Origin: Mesonia aestuariivivens
GTDB lineage: Bacteria > Bacteroidota > Bacteroidia > Flavobacteriales > Flavobacteriaceae
Assembly: GCF_019311235.1 (NCBI RefSeq)
Contig: NZ_JAHWDF010000003.1
Coordinates: forward strand, 62,001-126,000
Length of the DNA: 64,000 bases
Direction: 5' to 3'
The notes beneath the pieces are model-generated. The model saw only the letters and a program-made list of their open reading frames with translations, was not told where the DNA came from and did no database searches. Both the position numbers and the translations under genes were made by a program. Positions 12,027-44,631 of the stretch are shown here, piece by piece (position 1 is the first letter of the stretch; every line of letters starts with the position of its first letter).

Positions 12027-12118
12027 GCGTTAGGGATAGTAGTGAAAATCCCACAGCCCGATAGGGCGAGGAATTGTAGCGAATAGCCCGCCAATTGTTT
12101 TTTAGACAATTGAAACGC
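12027..12118 (+). ncRNA. Structured RNA repeat, copy A (possible Flavo-1-like motif)
   Basis: Outer stem GCGTT/AACGC encloses the conserved AGGGATAG, an inner hairpin GCCC-GATA-GGGC, the conserved GCGAATAGCCCG at 12079-12090, and a second hairpin CAATTGT/ACAATTG. The same framework with different stem sequences occurs at 28873-28974 and 44495-44631. It may belong to the Flavo-1 RNA family of Rfam, which I recall only in outline and cannot check. Confidence 0.65.
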
Positions 12119-12161
12119 CCAAATAAAAGTTATTTATATTTTTGCTTTCGCAGAAATACTT

Positions 12162-12557
12162 GGGGTCGACTGGTTTTGACAGCGAGTCTAATTGGGTAGT
12201 AAGCACGTCGAGCGCTGGGATATAGCTCGTAAATATCATATTTCAAACTTTTTTAAACGGCGAAAATAATTACGCCTTAGCTGCGTAATCTGAACTAAAG
12301 TAAGATTACCTTAACCTATGTAAGACATAGGGCTAAGATGCCTCTGGAAAGCCTTGATTTATGGCGTTCCAACTAGAGGCACCGATAAAGTAAATCTAGG
12401 TAACTCGATACCTTTAAGGGTTACTAAAATCTTAAAGGTTAAGGAAAGATTAGAAGGTTTTCTGTCAGATCTTTCTCGAAAATTGAAGTGAAAAATAAAC
12501 GTGTAGAAAGCTATTGAATTGCTTGTTTGGACGGGAGTTCGAATCTCCCCGACTCCA
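12162..12557 (+). ncRNA. ssrA: tmRNA (ssrA), tag GENNYALAA
   Basis: Transfer-messenger RNA rescues stalled ribosomes with SmpB. The acceptor stem GGGGTCG at the 5' end pairs with CGACTCC at 12550-12556 (one G-T pair), followed by discriminator A. The T arm GGGAG-TTCGAAT-CTCCC is present. The tag reading frame at 12259-12288 encodes G-E-N-N-Y-A-L-A-A then TAA, the typical Bacteroidota ending. CCA is not encoded. A terminator follows directly. Confidence 0.95.
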
Positions 12558-12568
12558 CTTAAAAAAAC

Positions 12569-12610
12569 CTCAACTATTTTAAAAACAAATAGTTGAGCTT
12601 TTTTATTTTT
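12569..12610 (+). terminator. Terminator of ssrA
   Basis: CTCAACTATTT at 12569-12579 pairs perfectly with AAATAGTTGAG at 12587-12597, followed by a T-rich run. The remaining bases to 12747 hold nothing recognisable. Confidence 0.85.
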
Positions 12611-12747
12611 ACTTATAAAAATGTTTTAATTTACACATCCTTTTTACTTCTATTTTCCTTAAAATGAGCTCTTCCGAATTCCGATTAATACTGAAAGTCT
12701 TTTATCTTTTAAAAATTAATAACCAAGAAAAGTAATTTAAAGTGAGA

Positions 12748-13770
12748 TTAATGATTTATAAAATCAGGATCACTTAATGTTTTCATAAACGCTATAAGAT
12801 GTTCTTTTTCTTCTTCTGAAAGCGATATTTTATTGTTATTATCTTTAAGAATAGGATCTAAATTTTCAGCATATAAAACTCCAGAATCTAAATAATCTAA
12901 AACTTCTTTTAGGGTTTTAAATTGACCAAAACTTCCGTAAGGCGCTGTATATTCTACATTTCTTAATGAAGGAACTCGAAAACTCATGTAATCATTTTCT
13001 AGACCGGTGACTCTTGCTCGTCCCGCTTCATTAGAATCGGAATTAATAGGAAAACCAATATTTCTAAAACTTTGATCGGTAAATAACGTAGTACTGTGAC
13101 AACTCACACATTTTTCTTGAAAAACCTGATAGCCTAGCGCTTCAATTTCTGTAAAGACTTCTCCTTCATTTCGTTGAATTTTATCATACTTACTATTGTT
13201 AGAAGTTAGTGTATATTCAAATTGAGCAATACTTTTATATATTCTATTTGCAGTAACTTCTTGATCTCCGTAAGCTTTCTGAAATAATTCTCGATAATCT
13301 TGATTGTCTTCAATTTTATAAATTATCTCTAGAATAGAAGAATCCATCTCTTCATGAGTAATAATAGGAACTAAAGGTTGATTTTCTAACCGAAGTTTAC
13401 TGCCGTCCCAACCATAAAAATTCATAAAAGCTAAATTTTGAATTGGCGGTGTATTTCGTATTCCTACGCGACCCTCAACTCCAATTGCTTGGCTATGCGT
13501 ATCTGCAAAAGCATGTTTTTGAATATGGCAACTAGCACAAGAAATAGAATTATCTGTACTTAATCGTTTTTCATGAAATAGCTTTTTACCTAATTCAACC
13601 CCATATTTTGTAGGCATATTAGTGTAAACCGAAGAATTTAATTCAGGAAAATCTGTCGGAATAGTTAATGCTACTTCTGGATTTTCATAAGAAACAGACG
13701 AAAGCTCGTCATCACTACATCCTATTAAAAAGAATATGATTAAACCTATTGCAAATATTTTTTTCATCAT
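12748..13770 (-). CDS. Diheme cytochrome c peroxidase family lipoprotein, MbnH-like
   Basis: A lipoprotein signal ends L-I-G-C with Cys18. Two haem c motifs are present, CASCH at residues 78-82 and CVSCH at 221-225, in the usual bacterial CcpA/MauG layout. Where classical peroxidases read HDG after the RxPSLRN segment, this protein reads YGSFGQF, and no Met follows in the next 20 residues. That favours a MauG/MbnH-like enzyme over a plain peroxidase. MbnH oxidises a tryptophan of its partner MbnP, and an MbnP-family gene lies directly upstream (53-base gap). It is the last gene of the putative copper locus. Confidence 0.85.
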   Translation of the reverse strand: MMKKIFAIGLIIFFLIGCSDDELSSVSYENPEVALTIPTDFPELNSSVYTNMPTKYGVELGKKLFHEKRLSTDNSISCASCHIQKHAFADTHSQAIGVEGRVGIRNTPPIQNLAFMNFYGWDGSKLRLENQPLVPIITHEEMDSSILEIIYKIEDNQDYRELFQKAYGDQEVTANRIYKSIAQFEYTLTSNNSKYDKIQRNEGEVFTEIEALGYQVFQEKCVSCHSTTLFTDQSFRNIGFPINSDSNEAGRARVTGLENDYMSFRVPSLRNVEYTAPYGSFGQFKTLKEVLDYLDSGVLYAENLDPILKDNNNKISLSEEEKEHLIAFMKTLSDPDFINH

Positions 13771-13781
13771 TATAAAAATTG

Positions 13782-13817
13782 AAAAAAGCCGCCTATTTTG
13801 TTAAAGGCGACTTTTTT
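13782..13817. terminator. Hairpin between the MbnP and MbnH-like genes
   Basis: AAAAAAGCCGCCT and AGGCGACTTTTTT pair with one mismatch across a 10-base loop. A tracts and T tracts flank it, so it could terminate either strand. Here it may reduce expression of the downstream peroxidase relative to MbnP. Confidence 0.6.
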
Positions 13818-13823
13818 ACACAT

Positions 13824-14675
13824 CTAGTTTTGTACTGAAATAATTGAGAACATTCCTTTCGTATTAGTCTCTGCATTACCCCCAAGGTTATCTACAAATT
13901 GTACCATATTAGCAGCGGTATGAACACTAGGCGTTGCATTGCCGTCGCCTAGAGTAATGGTATTTGCTGCTCCACTCAATAAATGATTAAAATCTGCTTG
14001 AATATTAATTTTAGGTGCACTATTACCTACAACCGCGTTAGTAGGAAGATCTAATATTATATCTCTATACGCATCTACTCCCTGAGTGTAACTACCTTCT
14101 TGTCCTTCTACAGTACTTCCGGTATGAATAGATAATTGTTTATTATCAGTATCATAAAATCCTTCTATTTTAGTAAATCGGTAACCGGTTCCCCATTCCC
14201 ACATCATTTCGGTATCGTTGGCTCCGGCTGAAGCATAAAATTCTGGAAATCTTGTTTCATCTAAGGTATTGATGTCACTACGTACTCCTAACCCGAATTT
14301 AATTTGTTTGTATTCTGCGGTTGGTATATTAGTTAGTTCGTAAGTAGTAGTTTCAGGTTTTGCCTGATTTACCACTGTAGCTCCTTCATCTAAATCGTTT
14401 ACATTATATGGAAATTCTGTACCATCTTCTTTTATTAATCTGATGTTGCTAATTACATATTTCAATTCAGAAAAATGGTGTACTTGTCCTTCTGCAGAAG
14501 TATTCACCGTTGCTGCTGCTGAAGTTGCATCTCCAAGTACAATTGTTTCACTCCCGAAAGTGTTGGTAAATTCTAAATCTACATTGTTTGCAACAGGCAT
14601 ATCATCATCACTGCTACAAGACATAAACGCTAATGAAATAGCTAATAATAAAATTGGTTTTTTTGATAGTTTCAT
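13824..14675 (-). CDS. MbnP-family lipoprotein (copper-associated)
   Basis: The lipoprotein signal ends F-M-S-C (Cys20). The mature part matches the MbnP family: DLEFTNTFGSETIVL, the FSELKYVISNIRLIKEDGTEF segment, YKQIKFGLGVRSDIN, MMWEWGTGYRFTKIEGFYD (Trp159 and Trp161) and FNHLLSGAANTI near the end. Characterised MbnP binds copper through a kynurenine made from Trp by its diheme partner MbnH. The partner gene follows downstream and a TonB receptor precedes by 33 bases. Which Trp would be modified cannot be told here. Copper as the ligand is inferred from the family and neighbours. Confidence 0.8.
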   Translation of the reverse strand: MKLSKKPILLLAISLAFMSCSSDDDMPVANNVDLEFTNTFGSETIVLGDATSAAATVNTSAEGQVHHFSELKYVISNIRLIKEDGTEFPYNVNDLDEGATVVNQAKPETTTYELTNIPTAEYKQIKFGLGVRSDINTLDETRFPEFYASAGANDTEMMWEWGTGYRFTKIEGFYDTDNKQLSIHTGSTVEGQEGSYTQGVDAYRDIILDLPTNAVVGNSAPKINIQADFNHLLSGAANTITLGDGNATPSVHTAANMVQFVDNLGGNAETNTKGMFSIISVQN

Positions 14676-14708
14676 TTGTAAAAATTTATTTATTAAAGAT
14701 TAATTGTA

Positions 14709-16697
14709 TTAAAATTTGAATTTTAAAGACGTAAAAATATTACGTCCCATTCTAGGAATATTTCCCCAATCGGCATACGTGCTATAATATTCATTAAAAA
14801 TATTTTCGGCCCCTACTTGAACAATTGCCTTATACTTATTTAGATTAAACGTATAATTAGCTGAAAGGTTCCAAATGGTGTACGAGGGAGTTTGATCTTC
14901 TCCGTATTCTGGACTATAATTAATTTGCTCAAAATCTCCATTAACTGAAGTCTGAAACCCATAATTTTGATATGAAAAATGAAGTGATGTTAAGTAACTA
15001 AGCGGACGGATAAATGGCAAATTCCCGCCATCATCATCTTGACCGCGTGCATACGTAACCGAACCACTCCAGTTTAAATTCTTTAAAATAGTATAGTCTG
15101 CATTTAAAGAAAAGTTGAATAGGGTAGCATAATCTAAAGAAGTATAGCCTTTCACTCCTACCGATTGGTAATTCATAGGGCTTCCCATACTTAACACACG
15201 CCCAATGATATAATTACTGATGTAAAAATAATTCACCTTGGTTTGAATACTCATTTTCTTAGTTTTAAAGCCTGCACTGGCATTGGCTTCATAAGAAATT
15301 TCATTCTTTAAATTAGGGTTTCCTATATAATCATACCGATCATAGCTATTATAAATATAATACCCATAACCTTCAGATACAGAAGGCGCTCTTTCTCCAT
15401 ACCCTGCACCTACAGAAAAATTAAATTGATGTAGATTTAAGGTATATCCACCATAAAGACTAGGTAAAAACCTTGTTTTTTCTTGAGGAGCATCCGGATG
15501 AAAAATCCAGTTGAAATCTACATATTTAGAATGATTGTAATTCACACCTAAAGATCCGCCAAAATTTAAAGCACTCTTTTCAGAAATATCCCATCGGTTA
15601 TTTAAAGAAAGACCTGCATAACGTGTAGTCACCCAAGGCCAGCTATAGGCAAACATAGTCCGCTTGCTTCGGTCTTGTGGGTACATCCGCATTTCTGCAA
15701 TCGATAAATTATTGTAGGCATTTAACTGTGTTTCTAAAGAATAATTTTCTTTATGCAGATTCACTTTTGAAACCAAGCCATAAGTAGTACTCCACCCTGG
15801 CATATCCATATGGACTAAATTTTCCGGTCGTGTAGTATCGTCCATCTCATGTTCTATTGTATTAAAATAGACTTTGGTATCCCAAACCCTGAATATACCT
15901 TTATCAAAAAGCTGTTTATAAGACGCTGAAGTAATAATGGCTCTAGAAAGTGATAAATCCATAGGCAGTGCAGGATACCCCACATCTCTTGCCATATCGA
16001 ATATAGCATCTACCTTTAACGACGATAATTCACTGGTTTTATATGCCAGCCCTAATGACGTATTAAACTTTTTGTATTGAGAATAGTTGATTTCATTACT
16101 ATTTCCATCCGAATAATTTTCTGCTTTTCGATAAGATATACTCCCTTCTGCTACTAACTTATCGCTAGAATAGGCTACATTCCCAAGATTAAAAAATTGT
16201 TTATTATTGAATTCAAATCCGGACTGATAATTTCCATTCCATTTTTTGGCTAGCCCAAAAGGCGTGCTTTTTCTTTTTAAATCGATACTTCCGGCCACAG
16301 TTGCTCCAGAAAGTCCGCCTGATTGTCCTGATTTTATATCTATTTTAGAAAGATTACTACTTTCTACATACGAGGTTACCGGATCCATTTTATCGGTACA
16401 AGCTCCAAAAATATGCATCCCGTCAATGGTTATAATTGATCGTTCTGTATTCATATTATTCAGCAATGGCTCCCAAGCATATGCTCCTCTTTTTATAAAA
16501 CTGATGTTATCTGAAGAGGCTAAATACTCATCTACAGAAACTGCCATTTTCATTTCCGTTTCTAACTGCTTCTTCAGTATTTTTATTAAGTGTACTTCTC
16601 CCAATAAAACCGGAATACTATCTTTCTCTTTAGGTTCTTTTTGAGCATTAGCTATAAATGTTGCCAAAAGAAATAATATGGTGAGTTGTTTCTTCAT
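14709..16697 (-). CDS. TonB-dependent outer-membrane receptor, OprC/copper-like
   Basis: A signal peptide (LLATFIANAQ) precedes a plug domain (about residues 50-140) and a barrel ending SLKFKF. No carboxypeptidase-like extension is present and the 662-residue length is short for the phylum. The plug has GACTDKMDPVTSYVE, giving Cys100-x3-Met104; the loop near residue 283 has His283-Glu-Met285, followed by HMDM at 296-299. A CxxxM plus HxM set forms the Cu(I) site in Pseudomonas OprC, so copper uptake is plausible. It starts 1 base after the YtkA-like lipoprotein gene and is followed by MbnP. Confidence 0.85.
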   Translation of the reverse strand: MKKQLTILFLLATFIANAQKEPKEKDSIPVLLGEVHLIKILKKQLETEMKMAVSVDEYLASSDNISFIKRGAYAWEPLLNNMNTERSIITIDGMHIFGACTDKMDPVTSYVESSNLSKIDIKSGQSGGLSGATVAGSIDLKRKSTPFGLAKKWNGNYQSGFEFNNKQFFNLGNVAYSSDKLVAEGSISYRKAENYSDGNSNEINYSQYKKFNTSLGLAYKTSELSSLKVDAIFDMARDVGYPALPMDLSLSRAIITSASYKQLFDKGIFRVWDTKVYFNTIEHEMDDTTRPENLVHMDMPGWSTTYGLVSKVNLHKENYSLETQLNAYNNLSIAEMRMYPQDRSKRTMFAYSWPWVTTRYAGLSLNNRWDISEKSALNFGGSLGVNYNHSKYVDFNWIFHPDAPQEKTRFLPSLYGGYTLNLHQFNFSVGAGYGERAPSVSEGYGYYIYNSYDRYDYIGNPNLKNEISYEANASAGFKTKKMSIQTKVNYFYISNYIIGRVLSMGSPMNYQSVGVKGYTSLDYATLFNFSLNADYTILKNLNWSGSVTYARGQDDDGGNLPFIRPLSYLTSLHFSYQNYGFQTSVNGDFEQINYSPEYGEDQTPSYTIWNLSANYTFNLNKYKAIVQVGAENIFNEYYSTYADWGNIPRMGRNIFTSLKFKF

Positions 16698-16698
16698 T

Positions 16699-17622: not shown

Positions 17623-17845
17623 TTTTATTGAATATGAATATTAAATTGATGAGTAAATGAAAGGCAGCAAAAGGGATAGTCTACAAAACACTGTTATTAT
17701 AAAAAACAACATATCGTATTTGTATAGATTTTTTGCTGATTTTGAATAAGTTAAATTTTCTTAGTATGAATAAAAATATCCATAGCATTAGTCTGAGATA
17801 TTGAAAAATCAATATCTTAAACTCACTTCTAAAAAAATTTGATAT

Positions 17846-18205
17846 TTATACGATGGGAGGTCTAAAAACAGAATCTTTCTCGAAATAAGAATAGGCATAG
17901 ATATATTCTGAATTTATTTTAGATTTTAGCGTATAGGCAAAAGTTTCAATACCAAAATCTTCTTCTATTTGCTGAAAGAAAACAATACTTGTTTCAGTAG
18001 AAAAATGTTTTTTTTCTTTTTCTGTATCTGAAGCTTTAGATAGCTGCCTCATTAAATAGCACTTTCCATTACAAGCAAGTTTTGGCTTATCTTTATTTAC
18101 ACAAAGTTCGGTTTTAATATAATCGTAAAAAGCCACATATTCTAATAAAGGCAGAACGGGCTTAACGAGCATAAATATAAAAAATATGTAAACACCTAAC
18201 TTCAC
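17846..18205 (-). CDS. Small membrane-anchored cysteine-motif protein, unknown
   Basis: This 119-residue protein begins with a hydrophobic segment that could be a signal anchor, followed by a cysteine-rich part (Cys35, Cys45, Cys49 in LACNGKCYLMRQLSK). I do not recognise a family name. It lies 223 bases upstream of the YtkA-like lipoprotein on the same strand, so it may belong to the copper locus; the thiols and Met would suit metal binding. The gap 17623-17845 shows no further feature. Confidence 0.55.
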   Translation of the reverse strand: MKLGVYIFFIFMLVKPVLPLLEYVAFYDYIKTELCVNKDKPKLACNGKCYLMRQLSKASDTEKEKKHFSTETSIVFFQQIEEDFGIETFAYTLKSKINSEYIYAYSYFEKDSVFRPPIV

Positions 18206-18312
18206 GCTGTAAAGATCGTTATTATTTTATTATGAAGCAACCTCAATTTAGTCTTATAAGATAGACTAAATCTCAAAAAATTACGAATGAAATGAGATTT
18301 TAAATAGATAAG

Positions 18313-18807: not shown

Positions 18808-18949
18808 ATTGTTATAAATAAACACGCTATACTTTACAAATAATTAAAATTAAAGTCTAAAAACAAAAAATGATTAACTAAATTATACAACATATAATTT
18901 AGTTAATCATCTTAGTAAGATAAGGTTATTCTAGAAAATGAATTAACTC

Positions 18950-19676: not shown

Positions 19677-19707
19677 AAATTACTTTTTTGAAGACAAAAA
19701 TAAGTTT

Positions 19708-22798: not shown

Positions 22799-22828
22799 TT
22801 GGTAAATTAAAAATCATACTTATCTTTG
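22799..22828 (+). promoter_or_regulatory. Promoter of the trp operon
   Basis: TTG at 22799-22801 and TATCTTTG at 22821-22828 with a 19-base spacer match the Bacteroidota promoter pattern. The leader-peptide ATG follows only 5 bases after the -7 box, so the leader mRNA has a very short or no 5' untranslated part. Confidence 0.7.
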
Positions 22829-22833
22829 AAGCA

Positions 22834-22890
22834 ATGAAAAATTTAACTGTACATACTTGGTGGTGGAATAACTTACGGCAAAATTCGTGA
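22834..22890 (+). CDS. trpL: trp operon leader peptide
   Basis: An 18-codon frame encodes M-K-N-L-T-V-H-T-W-W-W-N-N-L-R-Q-N-S and then TGA. Three consecutive Trp codons just upstream of a terminator are the hallmark of transcription attenuation: a ribosome stalled at low charged tRNA-Trp would change RNA folding. The frame lies between a good promoter and trpE. Confidence 0.85.
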   Translation: MKNLTVHTWWWNNLRQNS

Positions 22891-22920
22891 GCTAGCACCG
22901 CTTTGTATATTACCATATCC

Positions 22921-22954
22921 AAAAAGGCTTGTCATCACGACAAGCCTTTTTTTT
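22921..22954 (+). terminator. Attenuator terminator of the trp operon
   Basis: AAAAAGGCTTGTC at 22921-22933 pairs perfectly with GACAAGCCTTTTT at 22939-22951 across the loop ATCAC, followed by a run of T. It lies 31 bases after the leader-peptide stop and 24 bases before trpE. I did not find a clear competing antiterminator helix by eye. Confidence 0.85.
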
Positions 22955-22978: not shown

Positions 22979-24373
22979 ATGTATACCCTCAAAACCGAAT
23001 CAACAAAAATAATCGCAGATACGATTACTCCGGTAAGTATTTATTTAAAGTTACGCGATCAATTCCCGCATAGCTTACTGTTAGAAAGTAGCGATTACCA
23101 TGCTAATAAAAACAGTTTCTCTTACATCTGCTGTAATCCCATAGCTTCTATTAAAGCTGAAAACAACACACTTTATATTGAATATCCTGATGGGAAACTA
23201 ATTGAAAAAAATATTACGTCAGAAGTTCATATTCCTTCAGAAATAGAAAATTTTGCCAAGCAATTTCATACAGAAGAAACTAATTACAAATTCATTCATA
23301 ACGGTATTTTCGGTTATACAGGTTACGATGCTGTAAAATATTTTGAGAATATTCAACTTCAAGAAAAAGAAAATAAACTCGAAATCCCAGATTTTTATTA
23401 CGCCGTTTATCAAAATATAATTGCCATTAATCATTTTAATAATGAAGCCTATTTATTTTCACACAACTACAATTCAGAAAGTAATTTAGATACGCTACTT
23501 GCCTTATTACAAACTAAGAATTTTGCTCAATTCAATTTTGAGACCGATGGCGATATCACTTCAAATATAGAAGACGAAGTTTATAAGCAAAACGTAGAAA
23601 AAGCTAAACAACATTGCGCACGAGGCGATGTTTTTCAACTGGTTTTATCGAAGCGTTTTACGCAGAAATTTAAAGGCGATGATTTTAACGTTTATCGTGC
23701 TTTACGAAGTGTAAACCCATCTCCTTACCTATTCTATTTTGACTACGGAAATTTTAAAATCTTCGGAAGTTCTCCCGAGGCACAATTAGTAGTTGAAGAT
23801 GAAATGGCAGAAATTCATCCCATTGCAGGAACCATAAAGCGTTCTGGTGATGACGAACGTGATGCAGAACTTGCCAAAAAATTAGCTTCAGATGCTAAAG
23901 AAAACTCAGAACACGTCATGCTCGTAGATTTAGCTAGAAACGATTTGAGTAGAAATTGTGCAACGGTAAAAGTAGAAACCTACCGCGAAATTCAGTTTTT
24001 CTCGCACGTGATTCATTTGGTGAGTAAAGTCACAGGGAAAAAGAAAAAGAACATCAAAACCATGCAGTTAGTGGCAGACACCTTTCCCGCGGGAACATTA
24101 AGCGGAGCTCCAAAATACAAAGCCTTAGAATTAATTGAAAAATACGAAACCGTAAACAGAACTTTTTATGGCGGTGCGATTGGTGTGATGGATTTTAAAG
24201 GAAACTTTAATCATGCCATTATGATTAGAACATTTTTAAGCAAAGATCACCAACTACATTGGCAAGCCGGGGCAGGAATCGTTACCGATTCTAAACCAGA
24301 AAACGAATTACAAGAAGTTTATAATAAACTAGGAGCGCTTACTAAAGCCTTAGAAATTGCTAAAGAATTATAA
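22979..24373 (+). CDS. trpE: Anthranilate synthase component I
   Basis: Chorismate is converted to anthranilate using ammonia supplied by TrpG. The chorismate-binding domain shows CARGDVFQLVLSKRF, GSSPEAQL, HPIAGTIKR, DLARNDLSRNC and DTFPAGTLSGAPK. The N-terminal LLLESSDYH carries the LLES motif used for tryptophan feedback inhibition. The 464 residues are somewhat shorter than proteobacterial TrpE, which is usual for this lineage. It is the first structural gene behind the attenuator. Confidence 0.95.
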   Translation: MYTLKTESTKIIADTITPVSIYLKLRDQFPHSLLLESSDYHANKNSFSYICCNPIASIKAENNTLYIEYPDGKLIEKNITSEVHIPSEIENFAKQFHTEETNYKFIHNGIFGYTGYDAVKYFENIQLQEKENKLEIPDFYYAVYQNIIAINHFNNEAYLFSHNYNSESNLDTLLALLQTKNFAQFNFETDGDITSNIEDEVYKQNVEKAKQHCARGDVFQLVLSKRFTQKFKGDDFNVYRALRSVNPSPYLFYFDYGNFKIFGSSPEAQLVVEDEMAEIHPIAGTIKRSGDDERDAELAKKLASDAKENSEHVMLVDLARNDLSRNCATVKVETYREIQFFSHVIHLVSKVTGKKKKNIKTMQLVADTFPAGTLSGAPKYKALELIEKYETVNRTFYGGAIGVMDFKGNFNHAIMIRTFLSKDHQLHWQAGAGIVTDSKPENELQEVYNKLGALTKALEIAKEL

Positions 24374-27683: not shown

Positions 27684-28867
27684 GTACAACAAATCATATT
27701 AATAAAGAAGGTTATTACGGAGAATACGGTGGTGCTTTTATACCAGAAATGCTCTACCCAAATATTGCGCAACTAAAAGCCCAATATTTAGATATTATTG
27801 GCGATCAAACTTTTCAAGAAGAATATCAACAATTGTTGAGAGATTACGTAGGCAGACCTACTCCGCTCTATTTCGCTAATCGATTAAGCGAAAAATACAA
27901 CACTAAAATTTATCTAAAACGTGAAGATCTTTGCCACACTGGCGCGCATAAAGTAAATAATACTGTAGGGCAAATTCTATTAGCCAAACGTTTGGGCAAA
28001 AAACGCATCATTGCAGAAACAGGAGCTGGACAACACGGCGTAGCTACTGCCACAGTTTGCGCATTAATGGGAATGCCGTGTTTTGTATATATGGGCGAAA
28101 TTGATATGAAACGCCAAGCTCCTAATGTGGCGAGAATGAAAATGTTGGGCGCCGAAGTGATCCCTTCAACTTCAGGAAGTAAAACCTTAAAAGACGCTAC
28201 CAACGATGCTATTCGTGATTGGATTAATAATCCTGAAGAAACTCATTATATTATTGGTTCTGTGGTAGGTCCACACCCTTATCCCGATATGGTGGCACGC
28301 TTACAGAGTATTATCTCACAAGAAATAAAAGTACAGTTACTAGAAAAAGAAAATAAAACCAATCCCGATCATATTATTGCCTGCGTGGGCGGCGGTAGTA
28401 ATGCAGCGGGAGCTTTTTATCATTATTTAGATGAAAAAGACGTCAATCTCATAGCTGTTGAAGCTGCAGGAAAAGGAATTAATAGCGGAGAAAGTGCCGC
28501 AACTTCTCAACTCGGAAATAATGGAATTATTCACGGAAGCAAAACCTTGTTAATGCAAAGTGAAGACGGACAAATAACCGAGCCGTATTCTATTTCAGCA
28601 GGCTTAGATTATCCGGGCGTGGGACCAATGCACGCTCATTTATTTGCTAGTAAACGTGCAGAATTCTTATCGGTTACCGATGATGAAGCGATGCAAGCTG
28701 GAGCCAACCTCTCTAAGCTAGAAGGTATTATCCCGGCTATAGAAAGTGCTCACGCTTTGGCTGCTTTAGAACAAAAGAAATTTCAACCCGATGAGGTGGT
28801 GGTGATTAACCTATCTGGTCGCGGTGATAAAGATCTAGAAACTTATATGGACTATTTTAATTTATAA
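27680..28867 (+). CDS. trpB: Tryptophan synthase beta chain
   Basis: The pyridoxal-phosphate subunit that joins indole and serine. GEYGGAFIPE opens the protein, and KREDLCHTGAHKVNNTVGQ holds the Schiff-base lysine. ETGAGQHGVATATVCA, GGGSNAAGAFYHY, the hinge region HGSKTLLMQ and NLSGRGDKD complete the pattern. The 395-residue length is normal for the major TrpB1 form. Confidence 0.97.
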   Translation: MSTTNHINKEGYYGEYGGAFIPEMLYPNIAQLKAQYLDIIGDQTFQEEYQQLLRDYVGRPTPLYFANRLSEKYNTKIYLKREDLCHTGAHKVNNTVGQILLAKRLGKKRIIAETGAGQHGVATATVCALMGMPCFVYMGEIDMKRQAPNVARMKMLGAEVIPSTSGSKTLKDATNDAIRDWINNPEETHYIIGSVVGPHPYPDMVARLQSIISQEIKVQLLEKENKTNPDHIIACVGGGSNAAGAFYHYLDEKDVNLIAVEAAGKGINSGESAATSQLGNNGIIHGSKTLLMQSEDGQITEPYSISAGLDYPGVGPMHAHLFASKRAEFLSVTDDEAMQAGANLSKLEGIIPAIESAHALAALEQKKFQPDEVVVINLSGRGDKDLETYMDYFNL

Positions 28868-28872
28868 TTTGG

Positions 28873-28974
28873 GCGCCCGAGCGGGCTATTCGCTATATCT
28901 TTTTTGCTTGTCACTTCGAGCGGAGTAGAGAAGCTTTACATAGCAAAAAAGGATGCCGCTTCTATCCCTGGCGC
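28873..28974 (-). ncRNA. Structured RNA repeat, copy B (antisense in the trpB-trpA gap)
   Basis: On the minus strand the outer stem is GCGCC/GGCGC, then AGGGATAG, a long A/T-rich stem (CCTTTTTT/AAAAAAG) whose loop carries the palindrome CTTCGAGCGGAGTAGAGAAG, and GCGAATAGCCCG, followed by a short CCCG-CT-CGGG turn. Copies A and C lie on the plus strand. Since it lies antisense within the trp operon, it is either transcribed on its own or only folds as its complement. Confidence 0.6.
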
Positions 28975-29020
28975 AACTGTAAATCTTTAAAAAATTAGAA
29001 TTTCAAAATTACACCTTAAC

Positions 29021-29785
29021 ATGAATAGAATTTCAAAAAAACTACAAGAAGATAAAAAGTTACTTTCTATCTATTTTACGGCAGGTTACCCAGAACTTAA
29101 CGATACCAAAACTATACTCGAAAAACTTGAAACATCTGGAGTAGATCTTGTCGAAATTGGTTTACCATTTAGCGATCCGTTAGCCGATGGCCCTACCATA
29201 CAAGCAAGCTCTACCAAAGCTTTACAAAACGGAATGACTACCGAAAAACTTTTTGAACAACTCAAAGATATTCGAGAATCTGTTTCTATTCCGTTAATCA
29301 TCATGGGATACTTTAACCCAATGCTACAATATGGGATTGAAAAGTTTTGTGAAAAATGTGCAACTATTGGTATTGACGGACTTATAATCCCAGATCTCCC
29401 TTTAGAAGTTTACACCAAAGAATATCAAAAGACTTTCCTGCAATACGGTTTACAGAATATTTTTTTAATAACGCCACAAACCGCAGAAGAACGCATTCGA
29501 CAAATTGATAATGCTTCTGAAGGTTTTATATATATGGTAAGTTCAGCTAGTATTACTGGAGCTAAAAATAGTTTTGGAGACGCACAACAAACTTATTTTG
29601 AACGCATAAAAAATATGAAACTTCAACACCAACAAATTGTAGGGTTTGGTATAAGCAATCAAGAAACGTTTCAAAAAGCCACACAATTTACAAAAGGGGC
29701 TATTATTGGTTCTGCATTTATTAAACATTTAACCGAAAATGGAACGCAGCATATTGACTCATTTATCAAGCAGATTAGAATGTAA
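29021..29785 (+). CDS. trpA: Tryptophan synthase alpha chain
   Basis: Cleaves indoleglycerol phosphate to indole and passes it to TrpB. DLVEIGLPFSDPLADGPTIQASSTKAL contains the catalytic Glu and Asp region. LIIMGYFNPMLQYGIEKFC, GLIIPDLPLE, GFIYMVSSASITGA and VGFGISNQE complete the family pattern. The 254-residue length is slightly short but complete. It is separated from trpB by 153 bases that hold the structured repeat. Confidence 0.95.
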   Translation: MNRISKKLQEDKKLLSIYFTAGYPELNDTKTILEKLETSGVDLVEIGLPFSDPLADGPTIQASSTKALQNGMTTEKLFEQLKDIRESVSIPLIIMGYFNPMLQYGIEKFCEKCATIGIDGLIIPDLPLEVYTKEYQKTFLQYGLQNIFLITPQTAEERIRQIDNASEGFIYMVSSASITGAKNSFGDAQQTYFERIKNMKLQHQQIVGFGISNQETFQKATQFTKGAIIGSAFIKHLTENGTQHIDSFIKQIRM

Positions 29786-29831
29786 AATTAACCTTTTTGA
29801 TTATACGTAATTTGTAATCATGAGTGTTTTC

Positions 29832-29929
29832 GTCATTCTGGACTTGATCCGGAATCGCATAATCCATTGAAAAACAAAAATATTCAGGCTGAGACTCTGA
29901 ATCAACACTTCGACTCCGCTCAGTGTGAC
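29832..29929. repeat. REP-like composite repeat after trpA
   Basis: The element opens GTCATTCTGGACTTGATCCG with hairpin ATTCTGGA-CTTGA-TCCGGAAT. It ends with CACTTCGACTCCGCTCAG and TGTGAC, a second known-looking flavobacterial palindrome unit. It lies between the convergent trpA and DUF1697 genes. Confidence 0.65.
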
Positions 29930-29971
29930 AAAAGGGTGACGGTTTCTTATTATGATTCAAAAGACATTAAA

Positions 29972-30511
29972 TCAATCTTTTAATAAACTAGAAATTTTTA
30001 AAGTAGTTTTCCAATTACGGGCAGTGGCTTTTGTATTCAATTTTTTCTCAATAAGTGTGGTAGATAATTTCGAGTTTCTTACACCATCAATATAATTTAC
30101 ATAAAGATGTTGGTTTTCAACTTTAAATTCTTCAGTAGAAAATTTTAATTCTTTAAAATTTTCTACTGCCTCTTTAGTTGATTTTTCCTTTAGAAAAATA
30201 AGATGCAACTGTTTAAAATCTTCTGCTTCAGGAAATGGATTTTCAGTTATTGTTTTTTCTATTTCTTCGGCAGTTCTAATAATCACCGGAATTTCGTACG
30301 TATATTCTTCTAATAAATGTTGCGTTAATTTTTCTTCTAGAATTGCCGAACTCTTTTCTTCCGAAGTAAAAAATAAATTACCACTTTGAATATAGGTCGA
30401 AACTTCTGTAAAGCCTATTTTCAGCACAGATTCGCGTAAATCTGCCATCTTTAATTTTCGCTTTCCGCCTACATTTATGCCTCTCAATAAGGCAATATAT
30501 TTTTGACTCAT
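29972..30511 (-). CDS. DUF1697 family protein
   Basis: The opening YIALLRGINVGGKRKLKMADLRE and TYIQSGNLFF are characteristic of DUF1697, a family of about 180 residues with unknown function. The C-terminal part (RNSKLSTTLIEKKLNTKATARNWKT) also fits. No signal peptide is present. It is monocistronic and convergent with trpA. Confidence 0.85.
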   Translation of the reverse strand: MSQKYIALLRGINVGGKRKLKMADLRESVLKIGFTEVSTYIQSGNLFFTSEEKSSAILEEKLTQHLLEEYTYEIPVIIRTAEEIEKTITENPFPEAEDFKQLHLIFLKEKSTKEAVENFKELKFSTEEFKVENQHLYVNYIDGVRNSKLSTTLIEKKLNTKATARNWKTTLKISSLLKD

Positions 30512-36688: not shown

Positions 36689-36710
36689 TCTTACAAACCT
36701 ACTACTTAAT

Positions 36711-39509: not shown

Positions 39510-39525
39510 AATAAAATCAATAACA

Positions 39526-40287
39526 ATGAATCATCAGGAGATAGCAGAGATTTTAGATCAGGCCGCAAGGTATGCTAGACCCATATCACAATTAGCCACA
39601 GACTGTCAAATAGATTTAGATGCTGCGTATCAAATACAAAATCTTTGTGTAAGTAAACGCTTAGAGCGTGGTGAGTATGTTACCGGTTATAAACTCGGTA
39701 TTACTAATCGCGCAAAGATGCAAGAACTAGGAGTACACGATTTAATTTGGGGTGTATTGACTAATTCTATGGAAATTTTAAATCAAGAAAAAGTAGAGGT
39801 TATTAGATGGATACAACCACGTGCCGAAACCGAAATCGCTTTTAGAATTTCAAAAGATATTGAAGAATCTGTAGGTTTAAAAGAGATCACAAATTACATT
39901 GATAAAATGGCACCGGCCATAGAAATTGTAGATAGCCGCTATGAGAATTTTAAATTTTCACTAGAAGATGTAGTTGCCGATAATTGTTCAGCTTCAGCTT
40001 ATGTTGTTGGAGATTGGATTAATTTAGAAGAAAATATTAATGACTTACAAATTCATTTAAAGGTGAATCGAGAAACTTTAGCAGAAGGAAAAACGAACGC
40101 TATTCTTTCTAATCCGTTACAATCAGTGGTCGAGCTAAGTCGTCTGGCTTCTAAAGCTGGTACCGTGATAAAAAAAGGGCAAATTGTATTAGCGGGAGCA
40201 GCAACAACTTCCATAAATTTTTCAAGTAACCAATTAATTGAAGCACAAATTGAAAAATTAGGAAAAGTAAGTTTTAAGACAAATTAG
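39526..40287 (+). CDS. 2-oxopent-4-enoate hydratase / 4-oxalocrotonate decarboxylase family enzyme
   Basis: The 253-residue protein belongs to the fumarylacetoacetate-hydrolase-like hydratase/decarboxylase group: GYKLGITNRAKMQELGVHDLIWG, IQPRAETEIAFRI (metal-binding Glu pair), APAIEIVDSRYENFKF, VADNCSASAYVVG and AGAATTSINF. In the 2-nitrobenzoate/kynurenine aminomuconate route, enzymes of this type decarboxylate 4-oxalocrotonate or hydrate 2-oxopentenoate. Which of the two steps this gene covers is not clear; it may need a partner. ATG at 39526 is chosen over TTG at 39499. Confidence 0.85.
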   Translation: MNHQEIAEILDQAARYARPISQLATDCQIDLDAAYQIQNLCVSKRLERGEYVTGYKLGITNRAKMQELGVHDLIWGVLTNSMEILNQEKVEVIRWIQPRAETEIAFRISKDIEESVGLKEITNYIDKMAPAIEIVDSRYENFKFSLEDVVADNCSASAYVVGDWINLEENINDLQIHLKVNRETLAEGKTNAILSNPLQSVVELSRLASKAGTVIKKGQIVLAGAATTSINFSSNQLIEAQIEKLGKVSFKTN

Positions 40288-40368
40288 AAAAAAATTAAAG
40301 ATTATAAGTATCTGTTTTTAAAATATGAGCACGCACTTTAATCCTATTTTCAACTAAAAAATAAAAAA

Positions 40369-40797
40369 ATGTCAGGAAAAGTAATTGAAGGAAAAGCAAC
40401 CCCAAGAGGAAAATATCCGCACGTAAAACGCGTGGGCGATTTTATCTATGTTTCAGGAACCAGCTCTCGCAGACCCGACAACACTTTCGAGGGCGTTGAA
40501 GTTGATGAGATGGGAACTACCAATCTTGATATCAAGAAACAGACCGCAGCGGTTCTAGAAAATATCGACAGTATTTTACACGAAGAAGGCGCTTCGTTAA
40601 AAGATGTCGTCGATGTGACAACATTTTTAGTGAATATGAACGATTTTGGTGGTTACAACGAAACCTACGGAAAGTTTTTTGAACCGGAAACAGGTCCAAC
40701 GCGTACGACAGTTGCCGTGCATCAATTACCGCATCCACATTTATTGATCGAAATTAAAGTAATCGCTTACAAAAAGCAACAATACGCTACGCATTAA
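40369..40797 (+). CDS. 2-aminomuconate deaminase, RidA fold
   Basis: The opening [38 protein letters not shown] is specific for 2-aminomuconate deaminases (AmnD/NbaF) within the RidA/YjgF family. The later [25 protein letters not shown] also fits. It releases ammonia from 2-aminomuconate to give 4-oxalocrotonate, feeding the enzyme encoded upstream. The 142-residue length is normal. The AbiH gene follows after 33 bases. Confidence 0.9.
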
Positions 40798-40830
40798 TAT
40801 AAAAAACATTTCTAACTAATCAATGTAAAT

Positions 40831-42108
40831 ATGAATAGAATAATATTAATTGGAAATGGTTTTGATTTAGCTCACGGAATGAAAACTACTTATAAAGATT
40901 TTTTAGATAGTTTTTGGTCAAATAAAATTAATAACATAAAAAATACTTTTCAAGGTAGAATATTTGAGGATGAAGACATTTTAATAAAAAATGTACCCAC
41001 CCATTTAATTTCTGAATGTTCTAACTATCAAGAAATAAAATCAACCTTAAATAATTACGGCTCTAAAATTGAATACAAAAATTTATTTCTAGAAAAAATA
41101 ACTGAACAAGGCGATTTAAAGAAATGGGTTGATATTGAAAATGAATATTATATTCTCTTAAAAAATTGCTATAAAGGGCTATTAACTAGCAATATAAACA
41201 TTAGCAAATTAAATAAAGATTTCCAAAGAATTAAAGACTTATTAAATGACTATTTAGTAACAATTGAAGAAGGTTTTAACAAAATCGCAAATAATACGCC
41301 AATATTACGAAAGAGAAATAGCATTGGTCACAAAATTTTCTCAAAGTATAAAATAAAAGAATTAACTGAAAAATTAAAAAATTTAGAAATAGATAAACAC
41401 TATGAATTAGTTAAAAATGATTATCAAAAATTTTTAAATAAAGATGGAACGTTTAGTGAAGACTTATTGGATGAATATAGAAAAAAATTATTCCAAAGGT
41501 TATCAAGACCATTTACAAAAAAAGATTTTCGAGAATTATTATCAAGTGAATATGGTGAAGGATGCATCGATTTAACTCCAGAACAAACTTTAATATTAAA
41601 CTTTAACTATACTTCTACTGATTCTTTTTACTCTAATCCTTCAAAATATAAATATTATAGCTTTGATAATGTAACAAATGCTCAAGAAATTCACATCCAT
41701 GGGAGCAATAAAATTGAAGATGAAAATCCAATAATTTTTGGATTTGGTGATGAACTAGACGAGGATTATAAAGAAATTGAAAAATTAAACGATAATCAAT
41801 ATTTAGAAAACATCAAGTCAATCAAATATTTAGAAACTGATAATTACAAAAAGCTACTCGAATTTGCTAATAGTGATTACTATCAAATCTGTATAATGGG
41901 ACATTCTTGCGGGACATCAGATAGAACCATGCTAAATACTTTATTTGAACATAAAAATTGTTGCTCTATCAAAGTTTATTACCATCAAAAAGATGAAAAA
42001 CATGATAATTATAGTAATATCGTAATGAATATTTCTAGAAATTTTAATGATAAGAAAAAAATGAGAGAAAGGGTTGTAAATAAAACATATTGTTCTCCTC
42101 TTTGTTAA
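40831..42108 (+). CDS. AbiH-family phage-defence protein
   Basis: AbiH proteins open with IILIGNGFDLAHGMKTTYKDFL, as here, followed by a long Lys/Asn-rich helical region and the conserved ILNFNYTSTDSFY, IHIHGS, IIFGFGDELDEDYKEIEK and YQICIMGHSCGTSDRTMLNTLFE. The family gives abortive phage resistance in Lactococcus; its mechanism is not well defined. The gene is visibly richer in Asn, Lys and Ile than its metabolic neighbours. It interrupts the kynurenine-degradation genes between deaminase and dehydrogenase, and no mobile element borders it. Confidence 0.85.
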   Translation: MNRIILIGNGFDLAHGMKTTYKDFLDSFWSNKINNIKNTFQGRIFEDEDILIKNVPTHLISECSNYQEIKSTLNNYGSKIEYKNLFLEKITEQGDLKKWVDIENEYYILLKNCYKGLLTSNINISKLNKDFQRIKDLLNDYLVTIEEGFNKIANNTPILRKRNSIGHKIFSKYKIKELTEKLKNLEIDKHYELVKNDYQKFLNKDGTFSEDLLDEYRKKLFQRLSRPFTKKDFRELLSSEYGEGCIDLTPEQTLILNFNYTSTDSFYSNPSKYKYYSFDNVTNAQEIHIHGSNKIEDENPIIFGFGDELDEDYKEIEKLNDNQYLENIKSIKYLETDNYKKLLEFANSDYYQICIMGHSCGTSDRTMLNTLFEHKNCCSIKVYYHQKDEKHDNYSNIVMNISRNFNDKKKMRERVVNKTYCSPLC

Positions 42109-42209
42109 TTCAAAATAGAAAAATAATATTTCTAATTCTATTAAGTCATTTTTTCAACATGCGTTATATTTGAGTGGAATTTTTTCAGAATTCTACAATT
42201 TTTCAACTC

Positions 42210-43664
42210 ATGCAACAATTACAAAATTATATTAATGGTGAATTGATCTCACCTCTTTCTTCAGAATGGATCGACAATTTCGATCCTTCAAAAGGAGAAG
42301 TTTACAGTCAAATTCCCAGAAGCAAAAAAGAAGATGTAGAACTCGCATTTGAAGCTGCAAAAAAAGCCTTCCCAGCATGGAGTAACACTACTTTAGAAGA
42401 ACGCAGCAAAGTACTTCTAAACATTGCGAGTTTACTTCAACAAAAATTAGTCGATTTTGCGAAAGCTGAATCTAAGGATAACGGGAAACCGCTTGCTTTA
42501 GCTTTGAATATCGATATTCCGCGAGCGGTTAGTAATTTTAAATTTTACGCACACGCACTCACTCAATTTGGTAGCGAAGCTCACGAAAGCGTAGGTAAAA
42601 ATACTATCAACTTTACACTTCGAAAACCTATTGGCGTTGTCGGCTGTATTTCACCTTGGAACCTGCCACTTTATCTTTTCTCTTGGAAAATTGCTCCTGC
42701 CCTAGCCGCAGGAAATTGCGTAATAGCAAAACCTAGCGAAATCACTCCGATGACAGCATACTTACTCAGTGAAGTTTGTATAGAAGCTGGTTTACCCAAT
42801 GGTGTTTTAAATATTGTGCACGGCTTAGGCAACGAAGTGGGGCAAGCCATTGTAGAACACCCACAAATTAAAGCAATCTCGTTTACTGGCGGTACCAAAA
42901 CTGGAGAACATTTAGCAAGAACCGCATCACCAATGTTTAAAAAACTTTCGTTAGAATTAGGTGGGAAAAATCCGAATTTAATTTTTGCCGATTGCGATTA
43001 TGATGAGATGCTTAAAACTACGGTAAGATCTTCTTTTGCTAACCAAGGACAAATTTGTTTATGTGGATCAAGAATTTTTGTGGAAGCATCAATTTACGAA
43101 AAATTTAAAGACGATTTTATTACTGAAACCAAAAAGTTGCAAGTTGGCGTTCCCAGTAAAGCTTCTTCAGATTTAGGGGCGGTAGTTTCCAAAGCACATA
43201 TGGAAAAGGTATTAAGTTATATCAATAATGCTGAAAAACAAGAAGCTAAAATTCTCACCGGAGGAAAACGAATTACTGTTAAAGATCATGAAAAAGGATA
43301 TTATTTAGAACCAACAATTATAGAAGTATCTTCCAACCGCTGCCAATTGAATCAAGAAGAAATATTTGGACCAGTGGTTACTATTATGCCATTTAAAAAT
43401 GAAGAAGAAGCTTTAGAACTGGCGAACGATGTTCACTACGGACTTTCAGCTACGGTTTGGACCAGTAATTTGGATCGTGCGATGCGACTAAGCAACACGT
43501 TAGAAGCTGGAATTGTTTGGGTGAATACTTGGTTAAACCGAGATTTACGTACACCATTTGGCGGCATAAAAGATAGCGGCGTTGGTCGTGAAGGAGGTTT
43601 TGAAGCTTTACGCTTTTTCACCGAACCTAAAAATGTATGTATTCAGTACAATGCTAGAAGCTAA
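42210..43664 (+). CDS. Aldehyde dehydrogenase, probably 2-aminomuconate-6-semialdehyde dehydrogenase
   Basis: A 484-residue NAD-dependent aldehyde dehydrogenase with GVVGCISPWNLPLYLFSWKIAPALAAGN, SFTGGTKTGEHLA, LELGGKNPNLIF, the catalytic loop NQGQICLCGSRIFVE and PFGGIKDSGVGREGG. Together with the neighbouring deaminase and ACMSD, the specific substrate is most likely 2-aminomuconate semialdehyde (AmnC/NbaE type). The start MQQLQNYING at 42210 fits the family; an upstream frame start would read through the spacer. TATATTTG at 42165-42172 may be a -7 box giving this gene its own promoter after abiH. Confidence 0.88.
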   Translation: MQQLQNYINGELISPLSSEWIDNFDPSKGEVYSQIPRSKKEDVELAFEAAKKAFPAWSNTTLEERSKVLLNIASLLQQKLVDFAKAESKDNGKPLALALNIDIPRAVSNFKFYAHALTQFGSEAHESVGKNTINFTLRKPIGVVGCISPWNLPLYLFSWKIAPALAAGNCVIAKPSEITPMTAYLLSEVCIEAGLPNGVLNIVHGLGNEVGQAIVEHPQIKAISFTGGTKTGEHLARTASPMFKKLSLELGGKNPNLIFADCDYDEMLKTTVRSSFANQGQICLCGSRIFVEASIYEKFKDDFITETKKLQVGVPSKASSDLGAVVSKAHMEKVLSYINNAEKQEAKILTGGKRITVKDHEKGYYLEPTIIEVSSNRCQLNQEEIFGPVVTIMPFKNEEEALELANDVHYGLSATVWTSNLDRAMRLSNTLEAGIVWVNTWLNRDLRTPFGGIKDSGVGREGGFEALRFFTEPKNVCIQYNARS

Positions 43665-43700
43665 AGTTGTAAAAATAAAAAACGAATAGAAAATATATCT

Positions 43701-44486
43701 ATGAATTTAAACTTAAAAAATAAAAACGCACTCATTTGTGGGGCAACAGGAGGCATCGGCAAAGCTTCTGCTTTAGCACTTGCAGCAGAAGGTGTAAACA
43801 TTACCTTAGTAGCCAGAAATGAAGAAAAACTAAAAAAAGTTTTAAAAGAATTAAACAACAATCAAGGGCAAACACATCATTACTTTGTTGCTGATTTTTC
43901 TAATCCAGAAACTTTAAAACAAAAAGTAGGAGAAGCTACTCAAACGAAAGCTTACCATATTCTATTGAATAATACTGGTGGTCCTCCAGGTGGTAAAATT
44001 TCTGAAGCAAAAACAGAAGAATTTCAAACTGCTTTCACGCAGCATTTAATTTGTAATCATATTCTAGTTCAAGCTTTATTGCCAGGTATGAAAAAACGCG
44101 GCTACGGTCGTGTAATTAATATAATTTCTACTTCGGTGAAACAACCTCTAGATGGTTTAGGTGTTTCTAATACTATTCGTGGTGCGGTTGCTAATTGGAG
44201 TAAAACCATGGCGAACGAACTTGGTGAATTTGGCATTACGGTAAACAATATTCTACCAGGTGCTACGGCTACGGGAAGACTAACAGGTATTATTAAGAAT
44301 AAAGCGAATAAAACTGGAAAAACAGAAGAAGAAGTAAGTCAAGCTATGCAAAGTGCAGTGCCTGCCAAGCGATTTGGACAACCAGAAGAGTTGGCAAATG
44401 CGGTTACCTTTTTAGCGAGTGAAGCTGCAAGTTACATTAACGGAATTAACGTTCCTGTAGATGGCGGAAGAACAAAAAGTTTGTAA
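43701..44486 (+). CDS. SDR-family oxidoreductase
   Basis: A 261-residue short-chain dehydrogenase: NALICGATGGIGKASALALAAEG (NAD(P) loop), LLNNTGGPPGG, IINIISTSVKQPLDGLGVSNTIRGAVANWSKTMANEL and the C-terminal FLASEAASYINGINVPVDGG. The usual active-site Tyr of YxxxK is not obvious: the segment reads LGVSNTIRGAVANW, so Tyr and Lys are both missing. This group of SDRs with TGGPP loops occurs in aromatic degradation clusters, and its role in the kynurenine route is unclear. Confidence 0.85.
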   Translation: MNLNLKNKNALICGATGGIGKASALALAAEGVNITLVARNEEKLKKVLKELNNNQGQTHHYFVADFSNPETLKQKVGEATQTKAYHILLNNTGGPPGGKISEAKTEEFQTAFTQHLICNHILVQALLPGMKKRGYGRVINIISTSVKQPLDGLGVSNTIRGAVANWSKTMANELGEFGITVNNILPGATATGRLTGIIKNKANKTGKTEEEVSQAMQSAVPAKRFGQPEELANAVTFLASEAASYINGINVPVDGGRTKSL

Positions 44487-44494
44487 TTTAGTTT

Positions 44495-44631
44495 GCGTGA
44501 GGGATAGCAGCGGCATCCTTTTTTATATGTCACTTCGAGCGGAGTCGAGAAGTTTTTAAACCTAAAAAAGATATAGCGAATAGCCCGGTTTTATAATTCT
44601 ATTTTTAACAAAATAGAATTATAAAACACGC
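44495..44631 (+). ncRNA. Structured RNA repeat, copy C
   Basis: Outer stem GCGTG/CACGC, then AGGGATAG, a stem CCTTTTTT/AAAAAAG whose loop carries the palindrome CTTCGAGCGGAGTCGAGAAG, GCGAATAGCCCG at 44576-44587, and a long hairpin TTTTATAATTCTATTTT / AAAATAGAATTATAAAA. It fills the gap between the SDR and ACMSD genes. The framework matches copies A and B. Confidence 0.65.

Follow-up and report, generated by a model that had tools for sequence, protein, structure and literature searches.

Flavo-1 elements of Mesonia aestuariivivens have an extended fold kept in place by paired substitutions and may serve as addresses for a common factor

Introduction

Why does the same structured element occur at three unrelated loci within 64,000 nucleotides (nt) of the Mesonia aestuariivivens genome? 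The stretch analysed here (contig NZ_JAHWDF010000003.1, positions 62,001 to 126,000, hereafter the window) carries one copy upstream of the transfer-messenger RNA (tmRNA) gene ssrA, one between trpB and trpA, and one between a short-chain dehydrogenase/reductase (SDR) gene and an amidohydrolase gene. An original prediction, based on the letters of the window, described them as copies of a structured RNA with compensatory changes in the outer stem and guessed that they belong to the Flavo-1 motif. The guess was correct, as the Rfam model RF01705 matches all three.

Flavo-1 is a numerous family that has remained without a function since 2010. In the table of Weinberg et al. 2010 (PMC2864571), its row reads 'y' for RNA and 'n' for cis-regulatory, with Bacteroidetes as the taxon. 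PMC9029176 places it, as a computational finding, among the most abundant small RNAs (sRNAs) in an entry whose function is left blank. No function is given in the Flavo-1 passages of these two papers or of a Flavobacterium psychrophilum transcriptome study (PMC9723704), and the accession is also contained in PMC3765529 and PMC7682815.

Results

Three window copies of a dispersed family

The Rfam Flavo-1 model comprises 76 positions and has a cut-off of 42 bits. When the three intervals were searched with it, as the original prediction had proposed, copies 2 and 3 exceeded the cut-off (Table 1). Copy 1 scored 35.1 bits, below the cut-off, with an E value of 1.3e-5 in the genome search; copies located in the same place upstream of ssrA in two other sources exceed it (L247, 51.0 bits; L242, 50.8 bits). 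We also constructed an extended model, R1, with 26 pairs. It was built from 15 equal-length copies because a MAFFT alignment misplaced the 3' strand of the outer stem (P1'). R1 finds exactly three matches in the window, and it misplaces the third hairpin (P3) and P1' of copy 3, whose true P1' was identified by eye.

The predicted coordinates, outer stems and shared sequences were all read at the places claimed. GCGAATAGCCCG has exactly three occurrences in the window, one in every copy (six matches when up to two mismatches are allowed, against 1.26 expected from shuffles), and AGGGATAG is common to all three copies. The count of three copies is right for the window and not for the genome, which contains 34 matches to the Rfam model at E <= 0.001 (23 of them above the cut-off) and 41 to R1. 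Across 16 Mesonia genomes, including our own (G000), R1 finds 0 to 52 copies, and 15 of the 16 are positive; with 150 candidates scored per genome, these numbers may be lower bounds. The largest sets are those of G011 (52, the most), G009 (49), G013 (47) and G000, whereas a single copy was found in G008 and none in G006. In a survey of this order and of a control set, Flavo-1 is present in 25 of 40 genomes of the order (our own included) and in 0 of 14 control genomes. We are nearly certain that the window copies are Flavo-1 elements selected in place. The family is known; the extended form found here is not described by the Rfam model.

Table 1. Positions of the Flavo-1 copies, their parts and the adjoining tmRNA gene in the window
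Feature	Position	Strand	Remarks
Putative ssrA promoter, TAnnTTTG-type box TATCTTTG at 11975-11982	11957..11985	+	by eye; upstream of copy 1
Flavo-1 copy 1, extended form	12024..12120	+	R1 37.0 bits, E 3.5e-07; upstream of ssrA, apparent pre-tmRNA 5' leader
Copy 1, P1 5' strand GCGTT	12027..12031	+	sequence
Copy 1, P3 hairpin	12092..12112	+	predicted fold; in ssrA orthologues it differs yet pairs
Copy 1, P1 3' strand AACGC	12114..12118	+	sequence
tmRNA gene ssrA	12162..12560	+	RF00023, 141.5 bits
Flavo-1 copy 2, trpB-trpA spacer, antisense to both	28871..28977	-	R1 69.2 bits; Rfam 53.2 bits
Copy 2, P1 3' strand GGCGC	28873..28877 (reads 28877-28873)	-	sequence
Copy 2, REP-like palindrome in P2 apical loop	28909..28933	-	1 mismatch to CTTCTCGACTCCGCTCGAAGTGACA
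Copy 2, P1 5' strand GCGCC	28970..28974 (reads 28974-28970)	-	sequence
Flavo-1 copy 3, between SDR gene and amidohydrolase gene, sense to both	44492..44633	+	R1 58.9 bits; Rfam 52.2 bits
Copy 3, P1 5' strand GCGTG	44495..44499	+	sequence
Copy 3, REP-like palindrome CTTCTCGACTCCGCTCGAAGTGACA in P2 apical loop	44528..44552	-	exact match
Copy 3, long P3 hairpin	44588..44627	+	predicted fold; 18 pairs, the last sharing C44627 with P1'
Copy 3, P1 3' strand CACGC	44627..44631	+	sequence; P1' read by eye

Architecture of the extended element

The Mesonia element consists of an outer stem (P1), the Flavo-1 core (P2) and the variable hairpin P3, followed by unpaired CC. Oriented copies begin with a T-rich flank, the P1 5' strand (mostly GCRYW), A, GGGAU N, a GNA loop and RY, continue with a second 3-nt loop, AUC, the apical stem and loop, GAU, a 3-nt loop and RY, and end with a GNA loop, N, AGCCC, G, the P3 hairpin, the P1 3' strand and CC. 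P1 is about 5 bp long and occurs in many sequences. The core is composed of short helices with two symmetrical 3x3 loops, the first of which is GNA/GNA, and then a free apical stem. The G and A of this first loop are invariant in 33 trimmed copies. In 47 of 102 aligned copies, P3 takes the form of a short ACCC...GGG hairpin; elsewhere it is longer, different or absent.

The P2 helices, the two 3x3 internal loops, the free apical loop and the flavobacterial hosts are shared with Flavo-1 as modelled in Rfam. However, that model pairs nothing outside P2, whereas the Mesonia element adds a covarying P1 and usually P3. The extended form is set apart here from the Rfam model, and the consensus drawing of the 2010 paper may show part of it. 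In two genomes of other families (G028 and G036), the same core has, by eye, no P3 and no more than a short UAGC/GCU outer stem. The ssrA copies of G044 and G085, which belong to other genera of the same family, appear Mesonia-like in P1 and P3 by eye.

The third hairpins had been predicted to be self-complementary in each copy. This is clear in copies 1 and 3, and in the orthologues of copy 3 (L092 and L208; genomes G011 and G009) the P3 arms differ yet remain self-complementary. In copy 2, by contrast, only CTCG separates the core from P1', and P3 is absent from the predicted fold. By eye, it is missing from copy 2 and from the four orthologues of this copy as well, and the hairpin is dispensable. 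In single-sequence folding, stability exceeds that of the shuffles for copies 1 and 3 (z -3.5 and -4.0, respectively) and not for copy 2 (z -0.95, with 38 of 200 shuffles folding equally well). Minimum-energy folding of copies 1 and 3 as single sequences does not recover the P2 core, and therefore the structure rests on comparative evidence.

In both copy 2 and copy 3, the P2 apical loop contains a palindrome resembling repetitive extragenic palindromic (REP) sequences; the two palindromes have opposite orientations relative to the element. The palindrome CTTCTCGACTCCGCTCGAAGTGACA occurs at eight places in the genome, five of them away from any Rfam Flavo-1 match. Because non-orthologous copies share apical loops and such palindromes also stand free, the loops must have been exchanged or invaded.

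Five divergent relatives (L093:2205-2300, L016:2854-2956, L091:2100-2203, L014:431-514 and L010:2492-2587) have a similar P1, P3 and outer P2 and an inner P2 that is shortened or different. They may be further sub-families.

Paired substitutions among copies and within orthologous loci

The alignment contained 102 copies from 94 sources, with L085 left out. In it, 97.4% of cells are paired, compared with 81.4% in shuffles, and 372 cells are changed on both sides, compared with 88; neither value was reached in 500 shuffles. Registers slid along the alignment gave at most 58.7% paired cells and at most 81 cells changed on both sides. Changes on both sides occur at 20 of the 26 pairs. All five pairs of P1 vary on both sides while 98.2% of its cells are paired, and AU, UA, GC and CG are all seen at the innermost pair. 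Pairing in P3 is weaker (87.5% of cells). The compensatory change in the outer stem, which the original prediction had read from three copies, thus holds in the wider collection of genomic copies that it had proposed to examine, and likewise among orthologues.

Since this alignment had been fitted to the structure, and the copies in it are related to one another, orthologous loci provide the stronger test. We compared the first member of each of 29 orthologue groups with its most different orthologue in the P1 and P2-core pairs, excluding P3, the apical stem, the group of window copy 3 (L019, L092 and L208) and L023. Among the 434 pairs, 397 were unchanged, 28 compensated, seven changed on one side but still paired, and two unpaired. 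Over all orthologue pairs, the count was 110 compensated and 73 paired despite a change on one side; a further 23 were unpaired, with both sides changed, and four were broken by one change. When the partners were rotated, only 0-21 were compensated and 201-303 were broken by one change. When 30 groups were folded afresh and counted more loosely, the 905 pairs included 95 compensated ones, 36 one-sided ones and 51 in which one or more cells were broken. Between orthologues, identity is 92.1% at stem sites and 73.8% in the 40-nt flanks. The trpB-trpA copy illustrates a path of such changes in P1, being GCGTT/AACGC in G003 and G015, GCGCT/GGCGC with a G-U pair in G002, and GCGCC/GGCGC in G000 and G014. 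The fold on one strand is kept by paired substitutions, both among copies and within single orthologous loci, and evolution at each site preserves the fold, not the letters.

Copy upstream of the tmRNA gene

Copy 1 ends 41 nt before ssrA. With R1, a same-strand copy is found upstream of ssrA in 14 of the 16 Mesonia genomes (our own and 13 others), at a distance of 22-85 nt in 11 of them and 180-316 nt in three (G014 being weak, 23.3 bits). G002 retains a degenerate remnant by eye, and R1 detects no copy upstream of ssrA in G006. The sole R1 copy in the whole G008 genome is the one upstream of ssrA. Among 29 ssrA loci of other genera, drawn from 54 such genomes with a tmRNA match, a same-strand upstream match lies above the cut-off in G085 and below it in G041 and G016, and the other 26 have none. 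A copy also lies upstream of ssrA by coordinates in G044, and G018 has a match at ssrA on the other side and the other strand. A copy upstream of ssrA is thus a recurrent arrangement, though not a general one in the family.

A box of the TAnnTTTG type, which we take to be a promoter box, is located upstream of the copy by eye in all 11 close Mesonia ssrA loci; the one in the window lies within gattttattgtatctttgcc. The ssrA locus of G006 has only a degenerate box. Because such a box lies upstream of copy 1, we infer that the copy would be transcribed together with tmRNA. It thereby resembles the 5' leader of tmRNA precursors, with a conserved promoter-like box on one side of it and the mature 5' end on the other. 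To our knowledge, no structured leader element of pre-tmRNA has been described, although no literature search was aimed at one. Repeated units of the gattcctcccttcgcagg type stand between Flavo-1 and ssrA in G004, and G010 has one related unit (loci L235 and L238).

Genomic placement and inheritance

Copy 2 lies antisense between trpB (stop at 28867) and trpA (start at 29021). This spacer could be compared in 14 genomes, of which five, our own and four others, hold the copy in the same place and orientation and nine lack it. The latter include the close relatives G013, G009 and G011, which have unrelated sequence there. No clean empty site with a target duplication was found among the 14 genomes, the copy-less spacers being short or unrelated. 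In the trpB-trpA spacers of L064, L051 and L052, which are without Flavo-1, the unrelated sequence contains other apparent palindromes by eye, as if the spacer attracted hairpins.

For 24 of 34 copies in our own genome, the flanks match those of a relative's copy over at least 120 bases (80 loci compared; L025 has only a single weak match). The other ten have no flank match among relatives' copies that were only partly sampled, and one of the ten is the ssrA copy, which has counterparts elsewhere. Of the copies examined, the majority have been inherited in place, and they stand on either strand relative to the genes. Among 35 copies of our own genome, 13 are antisense to both neighbours, 12 sense, six convergent, three divergent and one undetermined, according to simple open reading frame calls in which the ssrA copy was classed by its protein-coding neighbours. 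Over 102 copies from several genomes, which include orthologues and are not independent, 42 are antisense, 25 sense, 16 convergent, 15 divergent and four undetermined. Where the gene on the 3' side is on the opposite strand, its stop codon lies within 15 nt of the element in 43 of 60 cases.

RNA or single-stranded DNA

The original prediction attributed the covariation to selection on RNA structure. Pair composition bears out selection of a fold on one strand and does not settle whether it acts as RNA or as single-stranded DNA. In 148 unique copies, only 36 of 3044 P1 and P2 cells (1.2%) are G-U. This count excludes identical copies and L205, L208, L157, L158, L119-L138, L019, L092 and L023, the last three because R1 misplaces their P1'. 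Controls from the same genus have 15.6% (RNase P, 16 genomes), 14.0% (tmRNA) and 7.0% (signal recognition particle RNA), with pairs chosen by RNAalifold for the controls and by hand for Flavo-1. Nevertheless, G-U exceeds A-C by 36 to 5 in the 148 copies, indicating that one strand is selected. A symmetrical DNA cruciform was rejected on this ground. P1 alone, with two G-U and three A-C in 99 copies (L019, L092 and L023 excluded), gave an impression of no strand asymmetry that weakened with 148 copies (seven and two, p 0.18), where the difference is still not significant.

The fraction of one-sided changes is 0.06 in pairwise comparison among all copies, compared with 0.36 in RNase P. Within orthologues, however, it is 73 of 183 (0.40). 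As the low fraction is not seen there, the argument from G-U for DNA is only suggestive. G-U is commoner in the copies upstream of ssrA (6 of 190 standard pairs versus 18 of 1989, p 0.014; 13 related copies, with the same rows excluded as above). In sequences folded singly, where spurious pairs are included, terminator-like hairpins (366) have 13.6% G-U, Flavo-1 copies 5.6% and Flavo-1 complements 7.1%. In the closed genome G044, no clear replication-strand bias was observed (four leading and eight lagging of 12 copies, assigned from GC skew at 20 sampled points).

On the element strand, 29 of 154 copies have a TAnnTTTG box no more than 80 nt upstream (mean 17.1 and maximum 28 in 100 shuffles); nine have one on the other side (shuffle mean 10.7). 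The box is combined with a TTG element in ten copies, compared with none on the other side. L119-L138 and copies with short flanks are excluded from this count. A minority of copies may thus have a promoter. Because G-U is oddly rare and copies stand on either strand relative to genes, we hold it about as likely as not that the element acts as RNA and not as DNA. With so few G-U pairs, covariation by itself should not be taken as proof of an RNA.

Discussion

We propose that each copy would act as an address, that is, a folded site recognised by one common, postulated trans-acting factor. This reading is based on unrelated loci that keep the same core, with outer helices and loops left free, and on genomes from which nearly the whole set can be missing (G006 and G008). 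The factor, an RNA-binding protein or a nuclease, would most likely act on the RNA containing the copy. At copy 1 it would act on the 5' leader of pre-tmRNA, at copy 3 on the intercistronic part of an operon messenger RNA, and at copy 2 on an antisense or read-through transcript. This last step of the proposal is its weakest. We favour, then, a structured address that a common trans-acting factor would bind, probably as RNA, with single-stranded DNA as the less likely form.

Several observations weigh against this proposal. G-U pairs are scarce, and copies of our own genome are as often antisense as sense (13 and 12 of 35), with antisense commoner in the larger, non-independent set (42 versus 25 of 102). 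Most copies lack a promoter that could be recognised on their own strand, and a TAnnTTTG box is missing from 125 of 154. The scarcity of copies in G006 and G008 could simply reflect the compaction of small genomes. In the F. psychrophilum transcriptome study (PMC9723704), Flavo-1 matches seemed to take either orientation relative to the transcribed regions without distinction, and many lay outside them.

The last point would also suit an action as DNA, in which a protein binds a one-strand hairpin, extruded or in single-stranded DNA, as with REPs or recombination sites that fold; on this view a conserved inverted repeat would have been mislabelled 'RNA' in Rfam. We consider this somewhat doubtful. 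The rarity of G-U, the indifference to gene strand, the few promoters and the REP-like palindromes within the apical loop fit it well, but the excess of G-U over A-C leaves no room for a symmetrical cruciform, and one-sided G-U changes within orthologues are not rarer than in RNase P. Neither the lack of a clear replication-strand bias in G044 nor the repeated same-strand placement upstream of ssrA would be expected from it. A bolder version, which appears rather unlikely, is that Flavo-1 is a genome-wide address system and not a set of RNA genes: a single factor would read the same folded core at dozens of sites, each fixed and selected separately, on either strand and whatever their transcription, with the tmRNA leader as the primary site. 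All sites would be lost together once the factor was lost, and the rare G-U would reflect recognition of single-stranded DNA at most sites. That the ssrA-leader copy is the functional one, in tmRNA maturation or control, and that the dispersed copies are old duplicates, is unlikely. Its presence in 14 of 16 Mesonia genomes, as the sole copy found in G008, and also in G044 and G085 would be explained, but the dispersed copies compensate in place likewise, a same-strand match upstream is missing at 26 of the 29 ssrA loci from other genera, and G006 does without it.

Independent sRNA genes, as implied by the Rfam type 'Gene; sRNA', are quite unlikely. The boxes exceed the maximum of the shuffles, and box and TTG element combined are confined to the element side; however, most copies lack a promoter of their own, their 3' ends often abut an opposite-strand stop codon, and dozens of dispersed copies, varying from 0 to 52 within one genus, are hard to reconcile with genes. 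For many F. psychrophilum copies, the passage in PMC9723704 argues against a discrete transcript. It is highly improbable, in our view, that Flavo-1 is a mobile repeat of the REP or miniature inverted-repeat transposable element type, non-autonomous and still being spread by a transposase. REPs, known for a conserved foot tetranucleotide, and bacterial interspersed mosaic elements (BIMEs), with their REP-associated tyrosine transposases (RAYTs), comprise dozens of intergenic imperfect palindromes, often beside stop codons and in either orientation. Flavo-1 shares the dispersed intergenic placement, the proximity to stop codons and both orientations, and its copy number across the genus and the apical loops shared by non-orthologous copies also suggest spreading. 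It differs in its three-way junction, conserved internal loops and strong compensation in place. No Y1-transposase match was found in G000, G009 or G013, three of the four copy-richest Mesonia genomes, and the fourth, G011, has one weak match (E 3.3e-5), which lends the mobile reading some support; a RAYT/Y1 transposase as the driver was rejected on these searches. The flank-matched counterparts of 24 of 34 copies, the lack of any match in the phage and plasmid records searched and the in-step evolution of stems in place also stand against it, and nothing shows that the element itself moves now. A survey of REPs (PMC12306157) tabulates two Flavobacterium genomes in a passage that does not mention Flavo-1.

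Returning to the address proposal, the full architecture, the orthologues evolving in step, the ssrA placement and the near-absence in two congeners make several questions testable: which factor binds, whether the RNA or the DNA form is bound, and what becomes of tmRNA without the element. The in-place conservation, the indifference to gene direction and the placement upstream of tmRNA make them worth an experiment.

Further observations

Plasmid and phage records contained no match to the Flavo-1 patterns searched. Of two patterns searched against viral contigs in IMG/VR, one found none and the other found three (L331, L332 and L333). All three contigs so catalogued have a Flavo-1 match above the Rfam cut-off.

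The trp cluster that holds copy 2 starts with an anthranilate-synthase-like gene (22979-24373), upstream of which the window contains a Bacteroid-trp leader (RF01692, 72.2 bits, 22814-22933, + strand). Downstream of trpA, at 29797-29976 of the window, lies a second dispersed repeat family that occurs at many places in several Mesonia genomes, with matches of about 74-97% identity ranging from short ones to about 180 bases.

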